This document shows, in pieces, positions 38,901 to 63,948 of a DNA stretch of 64,000 nt. The stretch's first letter is position 1. Every line of letters begins with the position of its first letter. The notes beneath the pieces were generated by a model, which saw only the letters and a list, made by a program, of their open reading frames with translations, made no database searches and was not told where the DNA came from. Position numbers and translations under genes: made by a program. Source of the stretch: Zoroaster sp. YZ-2022 (taxonomy: Eukaryota; Echinodermata; Asteroidea; Forcipulatida; Zoroasteridae); NCBI GenBank assembly GCA_029582265.1, contig CM055837.1:10119926-10183925 (forward strand). Direction: 5' to 3'.

Positions 38901-41900
38901 TAATTAAACATCTTAATCATTGTTCAAATCAATGTGGATAGGGTAGGTATGTGAAGATACGCATCGATCGCGGCCGATATTTTCTGCCCGATTTCTGTTC
39001 CGCATCGCGTCATGCACGCTGGGGAAATCCCCATAAATTCGCATTCTGATTGGCTGTAGACGATGATGACGTAGTGGAAAATCCCCTCTTACATCCGCCA
39101 TGTTTGATTTTTTTATTTTTGGAATGTTTTGACCTTCGCTGGAAAAGTTTAAGAAATCACTGTTTTGACGGCACAAATACCACTCTAAGGCCCAATCCTA
39201 CATTATTGAAAGGTTAGTCTACATTATTGTTGTTATTTCATCTTTAAAATCCCAAAGTTTCATTGTATTTTATGGGTCCCCAAAAAAATTGACTTACCCG
39301 GAGTCTGACGCGGCCGGGTCGACGCGACCCGGTCGCAGCTGATTAACGAAGGAATCACAAGCGTTTTTGTTCAAACCACAATCGTTTTTATTCAAAAAAG
39401 TCGCGTTTTCGGTCACAAAATTCTAATCAAGTACCTGTCAGAGAAATGACGCTAATAATGAGCTCCAAATGCGTGTAATTTCCTTATCAATTAAGATATC
39501 TCAATAACTTTGGTACCACTGTGTAGGATTTTTCAAACTCTTTCCAGTGGTACTAATTGCATTGGTATTGGTTCACTTTGAATATTTTCTTCACATACCT
39601 AGATAGGGTCATTTGGAATGTGTGGTATAACTAGTGTAGTGGGGTGGGGTGGGGATTGCTTGGGGATAAGCCTTATCGCAATTTAGCACTGTCAGTGTCA
39701 CTGAAGCAACTGCCGCAAAGCATACAGGGATACAAAAAGGGGCATCTGTTTGGCACAGCTTTTGTGACGTCAATAATATTGTGTTTGTCCGCGCAGCACG
39801 CAGTGGCGCTGTTGCGCCCACAGACATCCCACAATTCCTTGCAGCTGCTATAGTATTAGCGATAAGGCGTATGGGTGGGGATTGGGGCGGGGTGTGACCA
39901 GTAGGGTGCGGCAGTAGAAATATGTGTGTAATTGGTGGATTGGGGAGAGGGGCTGGTGACTTGATTGCTTGGTTACCAGCAGTGTTTACAAGCAATCTAC
40001 TTGGCAGAAGAGCTTGGTCTTATAAATTGAACAACTGTATTAATGAAAATATGGACCTCTTTTCCCACACAAACACGTTTTTGTTTGCGTGAATTTGTTT
40101 TGGTTATGTCAATGAAACTGAAACGGGACACCCACATTTAGCTTGTAAACTAGCATATAAATTGGCGAGGTTCCCTTGGGAATTATAGCCAGGAGGGCGT
40201 ATTTTGTGTTGCGTCTTTAGAAGTCCACCGAGCCCTCTAAAGAATTATTCATTGTATTTACACGTCATCCGAGCATGGAGGAAGGATTCCTTCCTCCATT
40301 ATCCGAGTGGCATGGTACCAAGTAACAATGGGACAATGGTGCACGGAAATTGGTCTATAGAAATCTTAGTATACCACACAGCTTTACAGATTTCAATGGA
40401 GACAAAGAAAAAGGTGTGGAACAGGTTTACGAGTGCCCAAACCCCCCAACCACCAATGCGAGCGTGTTTACACGGCCCCCACTATCGTGCCGAACAATAA
40501 CACGTCGACCGAAGCACGAGCACTGCCAAAATGGCGTGTTTTCACGTCACCCGAAAGGACAATGGAAGCTTCCACAGCGTGTGGCCACGTCTTCCGAGCA
40601 TGGCACTTTACGCACGTGGCTCATTATCACGTCAACCGAGCATGCATACAAATATTCCCGAGTTTCCTATGGCGTGTTTAGACGCTCTCCGATCCGCGGT
40701 GCCAAAAAAAATTGCGTGTATACACGGCCTCCGACGCGAACTGGTTGATAAAAAATACGAGATCATTTATTTATTTGTTTTTGTCCATTGGTTCAAATCA
40801 AGTTAGAATAAAAATCAACACATATATATACAGGCAAGATTGTCAATCATTGAATTTCAGAAAAATTTTCAATTATTCCAGTAATTTGTTCACATGCTAA
40901 TTATACAAACAATTTTTATAAGTAAGGTATTTACAGAGCAAATGTTTTGTAGTTTATTTAGGCGGATTGTAAAAACAAGGACTAGTAATTTTTGTATAAT
41001 CACAAAGATCTGCTGTAAAATTTTAAATAATTTCTCCATTTTAATAAATATTGCTTTTGAATTTGATTCATTTACTAAATTGTGATTGCAATCACGTACT
41101 TAGTAAAATAAATATTTAGTAAAATTAACAATTTAAATAAATATAAATATTTATAAAAATAAATATTGCTTTTGAATTTGACTCATTATTTACCAAACTG
41201 TGATTGCAATCAAGTACTTATTAAAAATAAATATTTAGTAAATTATAAATTTGTTGTCATTACAAAGAAAGATTTAAATAAATCAAATTAAGAAAAATAT
41301 CATTTGTTAATGTTGTTTAACCCTCCTATAGGTTTAAGAATCAAAGACACTAAAAATTTGTATGTCACTCCTAACCCATTGACTTTGTGCAGTGCACTCA
41401 AATAAATGCAAGGACATGTGGCTTTGGTAGGAGGTCAAACCAAAACCACTCAAGTGTATATGAGTCTGCTGCTAACTTATGCAGTACATACACAGCTCTG
41501 TGTGACTCTGCATATAACTTATGTAGGACATACACAAGTGTGTTTGACTTTGCCACTAACTCCAGCACTCTTAGAGAAAAATACACATGTGTGAACAATT
41601 GGCAATGCAACCAAAAATACTCAAGTGACTGTCTGTGGGTGCGGTGCTTACTGGGCCAAATTTCAGCCTGGGCATACGAGGGTTAATTACTGTGTATTTT
41701 GTTAATGAAAGTTATAACTTATAACTGTTAAAACTGAAACCAACTTTAAAATGTATCCAACAGGGCTGGAACACAATCTTTGTCTTTGATAAAGGGAAGG
41801 TACAACTTTGATAAAAATGAAATATTGTTTTTAAATTTGCACTGCCATCATTGTCTGCTGATATGGATAAATGGAGAAGTGTACTATTGTACTTGTCTCG

Positions 41901-44900
41901 CTTGAAGTGAACTGACAATGGAATTTGCAGAATTCAACTCGGGAAATAATATTTTGGTGGATGACTTTCGGAATGTTCAATTAGATTCTTTGTAAAGTTA
42001 CTGGTGTTTTTGTACCTTCCCTTTATTGAATTTTGAAAGTGGTGCTGCCAACAGGAAAAAAAGAAAAGAAAGCAACAATGTCTTCAGCCTAATATAATGA
42101 TCGGGTCACTAGGACGGGCCAAGTGAGGAGTGATGTGATTCACCAGGTCTTCGGCCAAAGCCTTTCTCACCACTTCCATGTAGGTTCGATACTTAGTGTC
42201 ACTTTACATCTCGTCTGAATTTCAAGCTCCTTTGCTCTCGTATTTCAAAGGTTTAAAACTTTAATTATAACTATATATACAGTATATACCATTTTTAATT
42301 GGCTTTATCCGACAGCCTCCATCACATAAAAAAATATTAAAAAGCCCAAACGCACATGAAATTACATTATCGGACATAGGCCTAGGGATTTATACCCTAT
42401 TAAGTCCTTACGGTACAAGTTTTTAAACAGCCAGAACAATGCTGCGGCTTCGTTTGTGGTAACAAGAACGGCGATGGTGAGGTTTCTCAATATATTTCTT
42501 GGTACATGTCTTGTGTTTTCGCTGTCCTTCAAGGCTATTTATCATTGTCAAAAGTTGCTGGCTTTAATCACAAATGTATAAATGCAAAAAATGTCTTCTT
42601 TTACTTCTATTTTTATCCACTAATTGAGTTTTGTTTGTGTAAATGTTGTCGTCGATTTGAGTTTCCCGCGCTTCCAGAGCTTTTCCCGCGAAGAGAGACA
42701 TTGATAATTTCCAATGTAGTATATATTTAAAATACAATTTAAAAAAAAGGTGTTTACTCATATTAACATAAATAATGTTATTTGTTTAATTTTAATTATT
42801 ATATTGTAGTGAACAACAACAATGTTTAAAGTTTTGTTTCATGAGCCATGAGTAAAATAATAATTTTGATTGAGGATGGGTTCTTGCACGTCAAAAATGG
42901 AGTCACACATTAATCGTCGGATGGGCTAGTGTTGGTTTTAAACGGTCATTTGCAAGAAAATGCACAGATAACTTTTTGATGTGCGCAGATAGGAATTTGG
43001 GTAAGGAACCAAAGAACATATTTTTATGATTTTCACTAATCCAATTTTGCATATTTCGTTTCCCTTTTTGCGTTTGAATGAAAGAGTTGCCGTATACGGC
43101 AACCCTAACGTTGCCGTATAATGAAACGTTGCCGTATTCACCAACTCAAGGTTGCTGTATCTAGTAAATAATGATGGTGCAAACCCATTCAGTGACACCA
43201 CATCTTCGTTGACTTTTGTTTTTGTTTTCCAAGATGTATTTGTCATACAAATTGAAATACAGTGAATCCGTATTTGACTATTTCCAAAATTTGTCAATTT
43301 GACAATGAGTTTTGTGGGAATAGTAGGGTTTTTGTATGAACGTACCAATAATGACCGATTAGTCAAATTGGGGGAATGTGTAAAAGAGACAGGATATTTT
43401 TTCAGATCCTTTAGTAGCAATAGCTAAGCTTTCATGCCTTACTCGGCAATCATCAGTTGCATGTAATGGTTCAAATTAATGAGCCTGGTGGTCTCCTGTC
43501 TTATTTTTAGATAAGACATTGAATTGATGTTCTTTCCAAACAATTGTAATGTGTCCGTTTTGTTTTGTTTGAGTGAGAGAGTTCGTTGTTTTTATGTGAT
43601 TTGTTCCTCTAATAAGGAAAGTAAAACATTTAGGCCTTTCTGAACGCAACAAAGGGTTGTTTCGGAAATATTTCCGAGGGTTGTTGGTTTTGTTGTCTCA
43701 GCGGCCAGTGTTTGTTTATTGCTTGATTCACATCGTTGTGGTTAACGAACGGATTGTATGTGGTTGAGAAAACCAGTGGTACTTCCATGTTATTGTTTAC
43801 CTTTTGAATGGGTTTGGCTAGGTTTGCCAGTGGGTTTTTGGAAGTATTGTTAAGCATTGGTTATGCAATTCTCATTCTTCTTTGGAAGATATTTATATCA
43901 CTCAGGAGAGTAGAACGGGTTGGTTTAGCAGGGGTTGGAACGAAGTTTAAACCTTTACTCAGAGCAATTTTCTCAATTTGAGATAGCTTCGCTGTGGATA
44001 GGTTTGTGATAAATTGTTCACTTTGTTCTGCTAAAATAGTCATTTGACTAATATGGTTTTGTTTTGTTTTATTTGAGCATTCCAATGAAAATCGTTTCAA
44101 TTTTCGTTTTGATTGTGAATGTTTTGCTACTTTCGTAAATTTCCTTTTTGCCATAGTTGGGAGTTTTGAATCCAATAATATATACTTTTATATTTGTATT
44201 ATATTAATTAGATAGTAATAAGGTAGACAAATCGCATGAAATATCTCTTTTGAGAAGATGTGGTGGTCCTGAAAAGGACCGGTGGAAATTGGTCTTTAAA
44301 AAGACCGGTGGGTTTCGAAAGAGCTTTTTAAACTCCCTCTCTTGGCCGCTTTTTCCCCCGTTTCGGGGGTGCTTGTGGTCTTGTGAAGAAATCGTACAAA
44401 TGTTGTGCCGTGTGTAGTTCTCTCTTGTCTTGAAATGGTCCCGTATCTCTCTTTGCGCCGACTTGGTTGCCTTCAGTAGCCGTTGTTCTGCCTCTTCCGC
44501 TTGGTGGTTGTACTCCTCCAACGTTAGTTTGGTGAACGCAATCGCGGCCCTTTTGCCGAGTCTGTCCCAATTGTCCTGGAAGGACTTTCGGAAGGTCAGA
44601 CTACGGTGTGGATGAGGGGGGCCGCGATGCGTTCTGGATGTATGGTGGTGGAGTGTCCCGTTGGATGGCCCTTGACAGTGTTTCGATTTGTCTGGTGATG
44701 TGGACTTTGGCAGTGGTCAGATTTCTGACTGTATTTGCCAAAGTTTTCACCCGTTTAAAATCGATCTCTGTCAGTTGGGGTTTCTTCTCTGGGGTTGAGT
44801 TTTGTTGTTATTGTAAGTCGAACGAGGTCAGCAGGGTTTCTTCCAGTTGATCAATTAGAGGGCGTTGTCCGCAAGTAAACTGGCTTGATCCCGAGGAAGC

Positions 44901-47900
44901 TTGTGTGTCGGCTACTGAGGTTATATTATCCATGGTTATATCCGAGGTTCTTGGTGGAGATGGTGTCGGTGAACGCAACTTGAGAGATCGCCGTTTGAAA
45001 GAGTTACTGAGCTTGGTAGACATGTTGGCAGAATGATTGGGTACGGTTTTCGTTGGCGTTTATGCCGAGGTATTGCGGACTAGAGATGAGTCACAATCAA
45101 AAGCCTTTGTGTGTTTGGCTCGGGTGCATCATGAATTTGTAGCGTTCCCATTGGTTGTTCGTGAACAAAGGCACTTTGCGTCCTAGGTGGTGGTTCCGTA
45201 TTAGAGCAAGTCAGAGAAAACGCGGGAAGTTGGTTTAATTTGCAAGTAGCAAAAGGATGTTGAAACCAACGCATTTTCTTGTGTGGTTGTGTTTTTTTCA
45301 AAACATTAGAAAGGTTTAATTTCTATTTCCTGTGTGTGGAAATGTAAGAAAAGATCAAGAGATCTGTCCCTTTCTTCGGTATGTTATAGGGAGCTCCGTT
45401 TGGAGCTGGAATGATTTTGCTCAGGGTTGATTTTTCCTTCCGAATGCGGAAATTGGAAATAAAATATTGAACTTGGCCAAGTAGTTTTGGCTAGGTGTAT
45501 CCACTTATAGGTTTGTTGTTAGAGAAGCGGTATTTGTTTCCTTCCCGGTTTCGGGAGTGTGGAAAAGGGTGGGTATACCTCCATGCGTATTGCAAACTTC
45601 TTTGATATTGTAATAAGTGTCCTGGTGGGACCGCTGTGTACCGTCAGTGGCTTTCTCTTTCTATCTGTCCCTATTTTGGGTGGGTGTTGTGTTCAATATT
45701 TGAGTTTGACCATTTGGTCGGATTTATATGTTAAAAGCATTTTTATTGTTTATTTTAGGATTATATGCCAAATCTTACCCCTCCGAGTGCGGAAGTTGGG
45801 GGAAGGGTTTGGTTTTTGTTAATGCTTTTGGTCGGTTGGAACTCCACAATGGTGTAGTTAGGCGACTGTGCGATTGCAATGGCCTGTATGTGTGATACGG
45901 ATTGGGTTGTTAAGTCGTGGGTGGTATTTCATACCGGTTTTTGACAAAGATGCAGCTACCTGAAGATACCAAATCCTACGAGTTAGGGGGTATTCTCGGG
46001 TAGCTTAGGTAACCATCGAACCACAATACCCCCAAGGGGAGGGGCAAGGATTATATAAGTCAAAGTAGTAAATAATGATGGTGCAAACCCATTCAGTGAC
46101 ACCACATCTTCGTTGACTTTTGTTTTTGTTTTCCAAGATGTATTTGTCATACAAATTGAAATACAGTGAATCTGTATTTGACTATTTCCAAAATTTGTCA
46201 ATTTGACAATGAGTTTTGTGGGAATAGTAGGCTTTTTTGTATGAACGTACCAATAATGACCGATTGGTCAAATTGGGGGAATGTGTAAAAGAGACAGGAT
46301 ATTTTTTCAGATCCTTTAGTAGCAATAGCTAAGCTTTCATGCCTTACTCGGCAATCATCAGTTGCATGTAATGGTTCAAATTAATGAGCCTGGTGGTCTC
46401 CTGTCTTATTTTTAGATAAGACATTGAATTGATGTTCTTTCCAAACAATTGTAATGTGTCCGTTTTGTTTTGTTTGAGTGAGAGAGTTCGTTGTTTTTAT
46501 GTGATTTGTTCCTCTAATAAGGAAAGTAAAACATTTAGGCCTTTGTGAATGCAACAAAGGGTTGTTTCGGAAATATTTCCGAGGGTTGTTGGTTTTGTTG
46601 TCTCAGCGGCCAGTGTTTGTTTATTGCTTGATTCACATCGTTGTGGTTAACGAACGGATTATATGTGGTTGAGAAAACCAGTGGTACTTCCATGTTATTG
46701 TTTACCTTTTGAATGGGTTTGGCTAGGTTTGCCAGTGGGTTTTTGGAAGTATTGTTAAGCATTGGTTATGCAATTCTCATTCTTCTTTGGAAGATATTTA
46801 TATCACTCAGGAGAGTAGAACGGGTTGGTTTAGCAGGGGTTGGAGCAGTTTAAACCTTTACCCAGAGCAATTTTCTCAATTTGAGATAGCTTCGCTGTGG
46901 ATAGGTTTGTGATAAATTGTTCACTTTGTTCTGCTAAAATAGTCATTTGACTAATATGGTTTTGTTTGGTTTTATTTGAGCATTCCAATGAAAATCGTTT
47001 CAATTTTCGTTTTGATTGTGAATGTTTTGCTACTTTCGTAAATTTCCTTTTTGCCATAGTTGGGAGTTTTGAATCCAATAATATATACTTTTATATTTGT
47101 ATTATATTAATTAGATAGTAATAAGGTAGACAAATGGCATGAAATATCTCTTTTGAGAAGATGTGGTGGTCCTGAAAAGGACCGGTGGAAATTGGTAATA
47201 AAATTTGCACTGCCATCATTGTCTGCTGATATGGATAAATGGAGAAGTGTACTATTGTACTTGTCTCGCTTGAAGTGAACTGACAATGGAATTTGCAGAA
47301 TTCAACTCGGGAAATAATATTTTGGTGGATGACTTTCGGAATGTTCAATTAGATTCTTTGTAAAGTTACTGGTGTTTTTGTACCTTCCCTTTATTGAATT
47401 TTGAAAGTGGTGCTGCCAACAGGAAACAAAGAAAAGAAAGGCAACAACGTCTTCAGCCTAATATAATGATCGGGTCACTAGGACGGGCCAAGTGAGGAGT
47501 GATTTGATTCACCAGGTCTTCGGCCAAAGCCTTTCTCACCACTTCCATGTAGGTTCGATACTTAGTGTCACTTTACATCTCGTCTGAATTTCAAGCTCCT
47601 TTGCTCTCGTATTTCAAAGGTTTAAAACTTTAATTATAACTATATATACAGTATATACCATTTTTAATTGGCTTTATCCGACAGCCTCCATCACATAAAA
47701 AAGCATTAAAAAGCCCAAACGCACATGAAATTACATTATCGGACATAGGCCTAGGGATTTATACCCTATTAAGTCCTTACGGTACAAGTTTTTAAACAGC
47801 CAGAACAATGCTGCGGCTTCGTTTGTGGTAACAAGAACGGCGATGGTGAGGTTTCTCAATATATTTCTTGGTACATGTCTTGTGTTTTCGCCCTCCTTTC

Positions 47901-50900
47901 TCACTTTCAACGTCTAGCTTCAAGGCTATTTATCATTGTCAAAAGTTGCTGGCTTTAATCACAAATGTATAAATGCAAAAAATGTCTTCTTTTACTTCTA
48001 TTTTTATCCACTAATTGAGTTTTGTTTGTGTAAATGTTGTCGTCGATTTGAGTTTCCCGCGCTTCCAGAGCTTTTCCCGCGCTTCCAGAGCTTTTCCCGC
48101 GAAGAGAGACGTTGATAATTTCCAATGTAGTATATATTTAAAATACAATTTTTAAAAAAGGTGTTTACTCATATTAACATAAATGTTATTTGTTTAATTT
48201 TAATTATTATATTGTAGTGAACAACAACAATGTTTAAAGTTTTGTTTCATGAGCCATGAGTAAAATAATAATTTTGATTGAGGATGGGTTCTTGCACGTC
48301 AAAAATGGAGTCACACATTAATCGTCGGATGGGCTAGAGTGTTGGTTTTAAACGGTCATTTGCAAGAAAATGCACAGATAACTTTTTGATGTGCGCAGAT
48401 AGGAATTTGGGTAAGGAACCAAAGAACATATTTTTATGATTTTCACTAATCCAATTTTGCATATTTCGTTTCCCTTTTTGCGTTTGAATGAAAGAGTTGC
48501 CGTATACGGCAACCCTAACGTTGCCGTATAATGAAACGTTGCCGTATTCACCAACTCAAGGTTGCTGTATCTAGCAACGTTGCCGTATTTGGAGTTTTCC
48601 CGGACTGAGGCCTACCACTAACATTAACCTTCCTACACATGGGGGCCAGTCCGATCCACAAAATTCTGCTCTTGAGCAACCTTCAGTACATACATGTACA
48701 AGCCTGCTGTCCTTTCCAAGTAATCTTACAAAATCAACTGTGTGTCACCCAAAGTCACTGTAAATGTTTGAACATATTAGTATGGCCTGCAATAAGGCTT
48801 ATCGCAAATAGCAGCTGCAAGGAATTGTGGGATGTCTGTGGGCGCAACAGCGCCACTGTGTGCCGCTCGGACAAACAAAATATTATTGACGTCACAAAAG
48901 CTGCGCCAAACAGATGCCCTAAATTGTATCCCAGTATGCTTTGCGGCAGTTGCTTCAGTGCTATTTGCGATAAACCTTATGTAGGCCTATCAATGGGAGA
49001 CCACCTTACCCTGCAATTTCAGTGGTGTGACAGTGCACAGAAGGGTAACCATAGGAGGCCACTGGCAACAGCTAATGGCTTGGAGTGGCCTGAATGTGTT
49101 GTTACAAAAATTGCACTGATTGTAGGAGGGTTAAGAATAACTTTACCCATTACCACTAACTTATGCACTGAGATTTATACCAGAGTTATAATTAACGAGA
49201 AAAAGTGGCGGTTGGATGCGACATTCTTCCCCATCTCCCTTAGTGGATCCCATGTATTTGTGCACCACTGGAGGCATGTTTTCAACAAAAATGAAAACGG
49301 GTATCCGAAGTTTCCTGATTTCGGGTATCCGCTTCCAAAAATATCCGAAAATGCACAACCCTAGTTTGAGACTAAAATTATGCTGGGCCCAATCATTAAT
49401 ATTACATTTTTTGCACTAATTATTTGACAAATGTTTCATTGTCAAAGGTATGTCTCTCTATGTGCCATGTCCTTATTGGTACATTGCTATTTTACTTATG
49501 CTTAAAAATGACACATTTCAACAAGCCTCGAAAAAAAAAAAAAATTGTCACTTATCCACCCTTTATCCACCCTTTATCCACCCTTTATCCACCCTTTATC
49601 CACCCTTTATCCACCCTTGTATTTTCACTTACCCATTTCCAAAAGTCACTTACCTGATTTCAGTGTCTGGCCATGTTGTTATGGGACATGACATAAAAAC
49701 ATGGATAGATCCACTTACCCAGCAACTTACCTGCTTTTTAAAATCACTTACCGCCTAAAAAATCCACTTCCCTCCGGTAAATGGAAATTTTGAGGCTTGC
49801 ATTTCAAAATAATTATGAGTAGCATATTCTTACGGTAAATATATCCCAAAATAATTAATGGTGGATCCCGCCTTAAAGGGACAGTTTAATCACGATCAGA
49901 GCAGACTTTCAACAGGGCATGGAATCGGTGTCCCAGTTTAAGATGAACACAGTGACTGAAAATTAATGGCTCACTTATGCAGCAGCAACGGTAATATGAC
50001 CTTATCATGTGGGATATTATTTTCAGTCACTGAGTTAATCTAAAACTACATGTAGCACTCTGATTCCATGCCCTGTTGATTGTGATGATACTGTCCCTTT
50101 AAAAACATTTTGGCTCTTAATATTGATTTATGTTATTGTATTACGATAAATAGACTAGTGTTAAATAGACTAATCCTATTGAAGGTCAAATATAGATTTA
50201 ATTAATAATTAATACTGTAGTTAATTACCTGTACCCTGTATTGTTTACAGATGACTGTGTATTTTAACAATCTGGTCCACATCTGTTGAGGCTTGTGCGC
50301 AACTGTGCATGTACACACACACACATTCGTGTATTGAATAATTATATCCAATGGTACCCCCCATGTTTACAATGTACATTAGGTTGAATATGCACAAAGC
50401 ACTTAGCTGCTGCTGTGCACAGACCTGTATGCATTAACCTTGACTCCCTAGGCCCATTTGCTTACACATAACCTGAATCCTTCCTAACTCCCTAGGCCCA
50501 TTTGCTTACACATAACCTGAATCCTTCCTAACTCCCTAGGCCCATTTGCTTACACATAACCTGAATCCTTCCTAACTCCCTAGGCCCATTTGCTTACACA
50601 TAACCTGAATCCTTCCTAACTCCCTAGGCCCATTTGCTTACACATAACCTGAATCCTTCCTAACTCCCTAGGCCATTTGCTTACACATAACCTGAATCCT
50701 CCAAAATCCTTCAGTAGTAAAGCAAGAACATGATATGTATGCACAGTTTCTAATCTGTGATATATGTACATGGCCAGGGAACCTCCCTGCATGCATGGAG
50801 CAATAAACAGTGTCCACTGACCCAAAGCACTGACCTTGCAATCACTACAACAAACATGGATTTACATGTACCATGGAAAGGCAAGTATGCCTAATAACCT

Positions 50901-63527: not shown

Positions 63528-63591
63528 TCATTATACAGTAACTACAACCAACCGGCTCTTCTCAGAGCCATCACTTTTTCCAAAAAGAGAT

Positions 63592-63948
63592 AATAATAAT
63601 GTAGACTTATATAGCGCACGTATCCACCAAACTGGTGCTCAAGGCGCTTTACATTATTACTCCTGCTCATCAGATGCATAAATCATTCCTGAAACCATCT
63701 CAGCTCCCTGGGGAGTAGACAGCTCAATTGCTGCCATTACAGCGCATATAGGGGCTAATCAAACACAACAACCAACTCTGCCCTCACAGGTACCCATTTA
63801 CCCCTGGGTGGAGCGAAAGCAATTATAGTGAAGTGTCTTGCTCAAGGACACAAGTACCCCGGTCGCAGTCGGGATTCGAACCCACATTCTGACGACTCAG
63901 CCATCAGATACACAAATCCGATGCACTAAACCGCTCGACTATGGTGTA
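63592..63948 (-). mobile_element. Full-length tRNA-derived SINE
   Basis: AATAATAATGTAGACTTATA, AGCGCACGTATCC, CTGGTGCTCAAGGCGC, CTCCCTGGGGAGTAGACAGC, then GGGATTCGAACCCACATTC and CCGCTCGACTATGG. Closest in layout to the copies at 20962 and 32830. Confidence 0.85.

Follow-up and report, generated by a model that had tools for sequence, protein, structure and literature searches.

The window analyzed here, a 64,000-nucleotide stretch of the genome of the sea star Zoroaster sp. YZ-2022 (contig CM055837.1, positions 10,119,926 to 10,183,925), carries on its minus strand what is, judged by its sequence, a partial tandem, reverse transcriptase (RT)-deleted derivative of a Penelope-like element (PLE) family with two open reading frames (ORFs) and no GIY-YIG endonuclease (EN). 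We consider it likely that this derivative is a non-autonomous passenger, copied by and recombined with RT-bearing sister elements, that would rely on hammerhead cleavage, histone-type RNA processing and endonuclease-free priming. The observations that carry this reading are the anatomy of the element, its relatives, the mosaicism of its copies, the conservation of two RNA motifs and the duplication of its target. The most surprising part is a histone 3'-end signal behind ORF1, which suggests histone-type processing of the transcript.

The features of the element, in the order in which the minus strand reads through them, are as follows.

47201..48574, minus strand: putative duplicated target, 5' copy (A')
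46066..47195, minus strand: upstream pseudo-long terminal repeat (pseudo-LTR), a 5'-truncated copy with its 5' edge at ~47195
47142..47188, minus strand: repeat of the histone 3' stem-loop, located at the 5' edge of the upstream pseudo-LTR (RF00032, 39.3 bits)
46292..46406, minus strand: hammerhead-type ribozyme, upstream copy, predicted cut 46326/46325, identical to the downstream copy
43163..46065, minus strand: full RT-less unit, ~2.9 kb, reading from 46065 to a 3' end ...ATTTACT at ~43163
46051..46057, minus strand: TATATAA box-like sequence, just inside the 5' end of the unit
44331..45035, minus strand: remnant of ORF1, a coiled-coil-type protein (tblastn 67.6% to the ORF1 of locus L014, 2 stops in the match)
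44239..44285, minus strand: histone 3' untranslated region (UTR) stem-loop (GGUCCU UUUC AGGACC ACC) with purine-rich downstream element CAAAAGAGAU (RF00032)
43833..44154, minus strand: start of the RT frame (MAKRKFTK...RRMRIA), ending at the first deletion junction, 43833/43832
43607..43832, minus strand: C-terminal RT remnant, split by a second deletion of ~0.12 kb at 43634/43633
43387..43501, minus strand: hammerhead-type ribozyme, downstream copy, predicted cut 43421/43420
41833..43164, minus strand: putative duplicated target, 3' copy (A), with 10 substitutions relative to A' in 1329 aligned bases and five gaps

The truncated copy (~47195-46066) thus precedes the full unit (46065-43163), with one 115-nt hammerhead in each, and a short filler at the ~47195 edge adjoins the duplicated target. 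Relative to the RT-bearing unit at L014, ~1.35 kb of RT core is missing at 43833/43832. These features bear out two claims of an earlier sequence-only reading of the stretch, which had described a Penelope-like element that had lost its RT (N- and C-terminal pieces of the RT frame are present in the window and the core is absent) and had placed hammerheads in its pseudo-LTRs (both sites lie in direct repeats 2905 bp apart); that reading was silent on the histone 3' stem-loop, the missing endonuclease of the family and the 1.33-kb target duplication. Splicing was ruled out as the cause of RT loss, there being no GT-AG at the deletion junction. Pfam returned no match above cut-off for seven ORFs in or beside the element, and the predicted structure of ORF1 (P0121 and five relatives) consists of long helices only (mean pLDDT 63).

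The two hammerheads (115/115 nt identical) contain the conserved CUGAUGA and GAAA parts and a CUA triplet, a stem III of AGC/GCU with a UUA loop, a stem I with inner GCAA/UUGC and outer GACAGGA/UCCUGUC strands, and a stem II in which a U-U opposition is followed by U-A, G-C, C-G and C-G pairs. All the hallmarks of type I ribozymes (CUGANGA, GAAA, NUH, three stems, stem I open) are present at both sites. A type I descriptor, composed with the motif in view and allowing any first stem II pair, had exactly 2 matches on the two strands of the window, at these sites, and none in 3.84 Mb of simulated sequence (60 first-order Markov windows), which is more than chance would give. The two minus-strand folds that had been proposed are confirmed. 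By the geometry of the sequence, cleavage after CUA at both sites would free 2905 nt (46325 to 43421). The U-U opposition, already singled out as odd, takes the place of the canonical first stem II pair, which we take to be G10.1-C11.1, and proved both real and widespread: in the 1.0-Gb assembly containing the window, a core pattern with U11.1 fixed, in which positions one and two of stem II and one partner could be any base, matched 214 times (112 plus, 102 minus; 0 for a reversed-pattern control), and 100/100 of the matches listed among these 214 were the same sequence with U10.1 and U11.1. The canonical G...C pair, the only alternative tried, gave 0 genome matches when stems III and I were kept unchanged. 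We conclude that this is a real ribozyme-type motif, with cleavage activity predicted.

RT-bearing sisters of the unit are found in the same genome. A unit of family F1 at L014, 5'-truncated near the ORF1 start, has an ORF1 of 244 amino acids, an RF00032 stem-loop, an RT frame (a PF00078 match with one frameshift; L015 also matches PF00078) and a ribozyme 115/115 identical to that of the window, and RT-less and RT-bearing units stand head to tail in one array there. A second RT-bearing family, F2, represented by L029, shares 86% identity with F1 where the two align and 73% in ORF1. The TATATAA sequence, a putative promoter, lies within a 31-nt run identical to one F2 copy (q2-32, in query coordinates).

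The relatives of the RT suggest an echinoderm host. There are 139 RT protein relatives, named ones including Patiria (sea star, 54%), Apostichopus (sea cucumber, 49%), Saccoglossus (acorn worm, 45%), Amphiura (brittle star, 41%) and Porites (coral, 37%); in an RT tree of 102 rows, the element falls in a clade of five with Patiria, and F1 and F2 fall in an 81-row clade. The F1 RT frame ends in DETLNVLLSLLEEQIT, with no PF01541 there, and PF01541 is present in 0/81 rows of the RT clade (by a precomputed Pfam column) and in 4/120 listed relatives, all four outside that clade. A GIY-YIG regular expression gave 0 matches, even in the four PF01541-bearing proteins, and so carries no information; other 'GIY-end' labels in the tree were assigned from C-terminal ends. 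With a Penelope-type RT, no GIY-YIG and a pseudo-LTR/tandem arrangement with a 5'-truncated copy, the family is best described as an EN-deficient two-ORF Penelope-like element. Because the 14 nt that follow 50 listed 3' ends contain no telomeric repeats, we do not file it as a Terminon and assign it only to the wider EN-deficient PLE type.

The history of the RT-less block can be followed at locus L031, where an F2 array includes an RT-less unit (D2) that carries both deletions of the window unit. Informative sites were counted by segment among four lineages: D1 (the window, L009, L030 and a derivative at L014), D2, F1 and F2. Sites that join D1 to F1 and D2 to F2 stand against sites that join D1 to D2 and F1 to F2 as 159 vs 0 in ORF1, 15 vs 0 in the stem-loop region, 25 vs 0 in the N-terminal RT, 11 vs 1 on the 3' side of the second deletion, 9 vs 0 in the ribozyme and 29 vs 0 at the 3' end; across the deleted block (q2195-2432), 7 sites join D1 to D2 and F1 to F2, 0 join each to its surrounding family and 2 follow the third pattern. 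The 5' region lies outside this four-lineage test, the F1 unit starting inside the element; there, D2 has 97-98% identity with F2, against 77-80% with D1. The simplest reading is that the RT-less block has a single origin and that its surroundings were later exchanged with the local helper. Independent RT loss in F1 and F2 was ruled out by the two common deletions and the block sites (7 to 0, third pattern 2). Since the block carries the surrounding family's ORF1, ribozyme and 3' end in both settings, trans-mobilization with template switching appears to have good support. The suggestion that the passenger is moved by another PLE gains in the same way, as the sisters at L014 and L029 share the ribozyme core and the block sits on two RT-bearing backbones.

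Further copies, for which the sequence-only reading had proposed a search, are numerous: in a genome search with the 115-nt ribozyme, the best-scoring 40 of 677 candidates, a sample biased towards identity, were all identical over 115 nt. Ribozyme spacings cluster at 2.87-2.93 kb (the RT-less length) and 4.36-4.38 kb (the RT-bearing length). On C1, 8 ribozymes lie 2876-2899 bp apart near 67.6 Mb, 5 lie at 2929-2934 bp near 69.8 Mb and 4 at 2871-2884 bp near 59.3 Mb; two intervals of 4361-4384 bp are found on C3 near 7.4 Mb, and two of 4369-4379 bp on C2 near 49.36 Mb. Sequence confirms that L009/L010 and L030 hold RT-less units and that RT-bearing ones are present in L029 and L031, the unit type in the remaining arrays being deduced from spacing. 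ORF1 is without a stop in 2/3 RT-less units of the C11 array.

At 8/20 loci (L016:4064-5948, L011, L017, L021, L024, L025, L026 and L028), a ribozyme fragment lies head to head inside a longer inverted-repeat element with common flanks and nearly identical breakpoints; at L016, 21-bp subterminal tandem repeats stand beside this element. Part of the ribozyme spread is thus not retrotransposition, and copy number alone is therefore no evidence of retrotransposition. At L013:2830, two Penelope arrays are joined head to head, with their 5' ends together and their 3' ends pointing away from each other, such as extension from both sides of a break might leave them.

The arrays bear on an alternative that we regard as rather unlikely, a true retrozyme cycle, in which dual cleavage and circularization would be followed by rolling-circle reverse transcription of a 2.9-kb circle, the RT of a sister PLE starting inside the tail. 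Such a cycle would account for two ribozymes per insertion, for head-to-tail arrays of up to 8 evenly spaced ribozymes (RT-less content being sequence-confirmed in L009/L010 and L030 only) and for the near identity of the window copies at insertion (0.89% vs 0.75% for the target duplication), and internal initiation by a PLE RT has been documented (PMC11167929). However, linear multi-unit transcripts would yield the same structure, ribozyme mutants were without effect on insertion in vitro (PMC11167929), and resemblance among the units of one array does not clearly exceed that between arrays, a result that also counts against the reading we prefer and that speaks neither for nor against the products of a single rolling circle as the source of RT-less arrays. 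Size and ORF1 are also unlike those of animal retrozymes, which PMC7229834 describes as linear and circular RNAs of 170-400 nt. The term 'retrozyme-like', used in the sequence-only reading, is accordingly loose for a 2.9-kb unit from an ORF1-bearing element, and with ORF1 open in some sister units, the element does not appear to be a retrozyme in the sense of a small non-coding unit.

The 3' end of the element appears to be fixed. Fifty 3' ends were listed in the fetched loci and the window, at 46 distinct places because L009/L010 and L013/L014 overlap; the next base is A at all of them (50/50), and the next three are ACT at most (38/50). They were located by the end motif itself, tandem junctions and the inverted-repeat element being included, and ends elsewhere would be invisible. 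This end, shared by >10 different 3' flanks, lies 258 nt past the ribozyme cut, and every ribozyme-spanning copy at the 20 loci runs to q2899-2903, although the query itself reached past the cut, most copies were chosen with a query or end motif beyond it, and copies ending at the cut would be missed. As the examined copies extend 258 nt past the cut, RNA cut at the last ribozyme would not be their direct template, a point that speaks against a simple retrozyme. L012, L022 and L027 share the flank behind the 3' end (ACTTTAATACCT...) and may represent one insertion spread by another process.

The insertion target is a dispersed repeat of ~1.5 kb (window 41683-48608), and we read the 1.33-kb flanking stretch as a very long target-site duplication. 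The two element copies differ at 10/1123 positions, plus three small gaps and an edge; being similarly diverged, they and the A/A' pair look equally old, as if made together. Three fetched paralogues of repeat A run unbroken through both junctions. It seems doubtful that the flanking repeat is instead an artefact of haplotype assembly or an older tandem pair of A. In favor of these, A is dispersed (40 scored of 270 candidates, among them 39 other places at 89-93%, A' being outside the 40 and the list hence incomplete), and no direct flank repeat >16 nt was found within 2.6 kb at L018, L019, L022, L023 or L027 (the 5' edges of L022 and L027 being approximate), so that a long target duplication is not the rule. 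On the other hand, A and A' are 99.25% identical over aligned bases, three compared family members reaching ~92%, and both hold only the between-junction part of the ~1.5-kb repeat, the missing ends lying on opposite sides, as a single duplicated target predicts. Rotifer Penelope target duplications, where present, are 8-10 bp long in PMC3846280.

The stem-loop behind ORF1 scores 39.3 bits against RF00032 in both window copies (gathering 34), with a fold z of -3.0 (44239..44285). Across loci L009, L013, L014 and L023, 7/9 copies score above gathering, as do the RT-bearing copies on C9 (37.9 bits) and C19 (37.2 bits); at a third RT-bearing locus, on C3, the upstream stretch at stem-loop distance is not element sequence. 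In an alignment of the window unit with one F2 copy (3019 columns, 75% identity counting gaps), 41-column windows free of any difference occur in two stretches only, namely the stem-loop with its downstream element (a 41-nt run, q1783) and the hammerhead core (a 56-nt run, q2605). Block shuffling of the non-coding columns produced a run >=56 in 20/2000 trials; the argument for conservation is that each run coincides with a motif already defined. Six relatives of ORF1 were also found, with 62-69% identity: P0123 and P0125 read past the ORF1 stop, and their peptides NFHRSFSG and ISTGPSQDHH match translations of the stem-loop frame, while P0122 ends in HRSF (a partial stem-loop match) and P0121, P0124 and P0126 end too early to be informative. 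Judging by titles and abstract openings, we found no literature report of a histone stem-loop in retroelements, and the word 'histone' is absent from PMC6431247.

A third RF00032 match (37.9 bits), on the plus strand at window positions 63549-63594, likewise has a purine-rich downstream element; TTATATAGCGC-type sequence follows, and no histone ORF is seen alongside.

We think it improbable that the stem-loop of the element comes from a single chance capture of a host 3' UTR and has been retained without function. Its position between the ORFs, and not at the element's 3' end, would suit such an event, as would the further match at 63549 without a histone ORF alongside and RF00032 scores of 3-5 bits over gathering, with 2/9 copies in four loci below it. 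Yet the 41 nt are identical between the compared F1 and F2 copies, in which neighboring segments stand at 73-86%, the C9 copy is altered in the loop and keeps its stem, and the read-through peptides place the sequence behind ORF1 in a lineage whose ORF1s are 62-69% identical.

Several observations weigh against the overall reading of the unit as a passenger with working RNA signals. Rfam at gathering threshold detected no hammerhead in the window, and a relaxed-threshold run covering 43300-43600 only gave RF02275 (Hammerhead_HH9) at 23.7 bits (gathering 52; E 8.6e-4 for those 301 bases), so that the above-threshold covariance-model hit by which the sequence-only reading had proposed to judge its folds failed to appear. 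The free-energy minimum of the 115-mer comprises the outer stem and stem II, not the whole hammerhead; an RT-less unit of L030 has a change in stem III of the ribozyme, and 3 nt are inserted in stem I of the C19 copy. The A9/G10.1 metal site adjoins the first stem II pair (PMC6257768 and PMC7151607), and a U-U in place of this pair may make the ribozyme slow or dead. Among the stem-loops, 2/9 copies fall below gathering, and the length of the 41-nt run is weak evidence by itself, because 247/2000 shuffles reach 41 or more; another F2 copy has one substitution in the downstream element and three RT-less rows have a 1-nt gap there. Neither RF00032 nor a hammerhead (by Rfam or regular expression) was found at 8 more distant PLE loci, in a scan of 14 stretches of 0.9-1.4 kb each (RTs 33-39% identical to query P0012) from which motifs farther off would escape. 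The block signal in the mosaicism test is small and, D2 being a single unit, exchange rests on one case. ORF1 of the window is broken, and no complete open RT frame was seen among RT-bearing copies of the family; in a genome search with a relative's RT (66 scored of 4601 candidates), full-length copies of the family had stops and stop-free ones were partial.

Despite the sub-threshold Rfam score, conservation supports the hammerhead fold, because a sister family with 75% identity over the unit has exactly the same 56-nt core; the C3 copy has a loop change in stem II. That the element is a dead relic, a decayed Penelope with fossil ribozymes and stem-loop whose copies arose by segmental duplication or a hitch-hiking DNA element, would accord with its broken ORF1, with the failure to find a complete open RT frame of the family among scored matches and with the 8/20 loci at which a hammerhead fragment in a long-inverted-repeat element shows spread partly not by retrotransposition, but is highly improbable given that the hammerhead core and the stem-loop are the only fully identical 41-nt windows at 75% overall identity, that one fixed 3' end stands before >10 different 3' flanks, that target duplication and element copies are equally, slightly diverged, and that the RT-less block occurs on two helper backbones.

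The passenger reading that we prefer predicts self-cleavage, histone-type processing, trans-mobilization and priming. Passenger RNA would be copied by the RT of RT-bearing sister elements, and template switching during reverse transcription would most likely provide it with the helper's ORF1, ribozyme and 3' tail. The transcript would probably run in the order ORF1, stem-loop, ORF2 (deleted here), ribozyme, tail. Near its 3' end, the hammerhead would cut tandem read-through transcripts into unit lengths, and because of its U-U pair, it is probably slow or protein-assisted. In PMC11167929, cleavage by a Penelope ribozyme required addition of the element's protein, and mutating the ribozyme did not prevent insertion in vitro; protein assistance would fit the U-U core. 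The stem-loop and downstream element would give ORF1 an SLBP/U7-type non-polyadenylated 3' end. The endonuclease-less element would prime on pre-existing DNA 3' ends, often ending ...AGT, and in the window such priming would have left the 1.33-kb target duplication.

More tentatively, and as something possible that we stop short of calling probable, an EN-less PLE lineage may have borrowed the histone 3'-end system, ORF1 being made from an SLBP-bound S-phase message, the hammerhead trimming tandems and the RT-less units forming a long-lived, end-swapping passenger lineage. If so, and provided that the stem-loop is functional, the histone mRNA machinery would tie retrotransposition to S phase, when DNA ends and gaps for priming exist. 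The role of hammerheads in Penelope elements is unsettled (PMC11167929), and the entry of endonuclease-less elements into internal sites is an open question. For both, the family offers a testable set-up of RT-bearing helpers, a defined RT-less passenger and a fixed 3' end, together with a ribozyme whose odd core does not vary between families and, as another conserved RNA signal, the histone 3' stem-loop.

Elsewhere in the window, on the plus strand, a short tandem array of an 11-bp unit (TTATCCACCCT) occupies 49552-49628, and an exon-like ORF at 18233-18649 matches the PF03029 GTPase family (172.6 bits), presumably of the GPN-loop type.

Comparison with known systems brings out both likenesses and differences. 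Replication-dependent histone mRNAs end in a stem-loop (RF00032) with a six-pair GG...CC stem, a four-base loop and an ACC tail, behind which a purine-rich downstream element is found, as it is here; in this case, the stem-loop stands in a retroelement, behind ORF1 and upstream of ORF2, and its processing is predicted. The rotifer EN-deficient PLEs Athena/Terminon, as described in PMC6431247, likewise have two ORFs, no EN, a coiled-coil-type extra ORF, a hammerhead near the 3' end, 5' truncation and head-to-tail arrays. The present family, compared with them by layout, differs in having no telomeric repeats in the 14 nt behind its ATTTACT end, in its echinoderm-type relatives and in the histone stem-loop and downstream element between its ORFs. 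PAc of Anolis (Poseidon/Penelope, PMC11167929) shares the pseudo-LTR/tandem layout, the hammerhead in the repeat and a fixed 3' end, a sign that the RT may start at a fixed point; in PAc, a single ORF includes a GIY-YIG and the ribozyme overlaps the ORF start, whereas here there are two ORFs, no EN and a ribozyme 3' of ORF2. Metazoan retrozymes, as PMC7229834 presents them, are also non-autonomous, with type I hammerheads, tandem copies and a PLE as proposed mover, but give RNAs of 170-400 nt, in contrast to a 2.9-kb unit that is a recognizable deletion derivative of its helper and keeps remnants of ORF1. Finally, the Adineta non-ribosomal peptide synthetase (NRPS) gene between Penelope pseudo-LTRs (PMC3846280) is likewise a pseudo-LTR-bounded cargo moved in trans by a PLE; there, the cargo is a host gene and target duplications, where seen, are 8-10 bp long, whereas here it is the element's own RT-deleted self, with a duplication of 1.33 kb.

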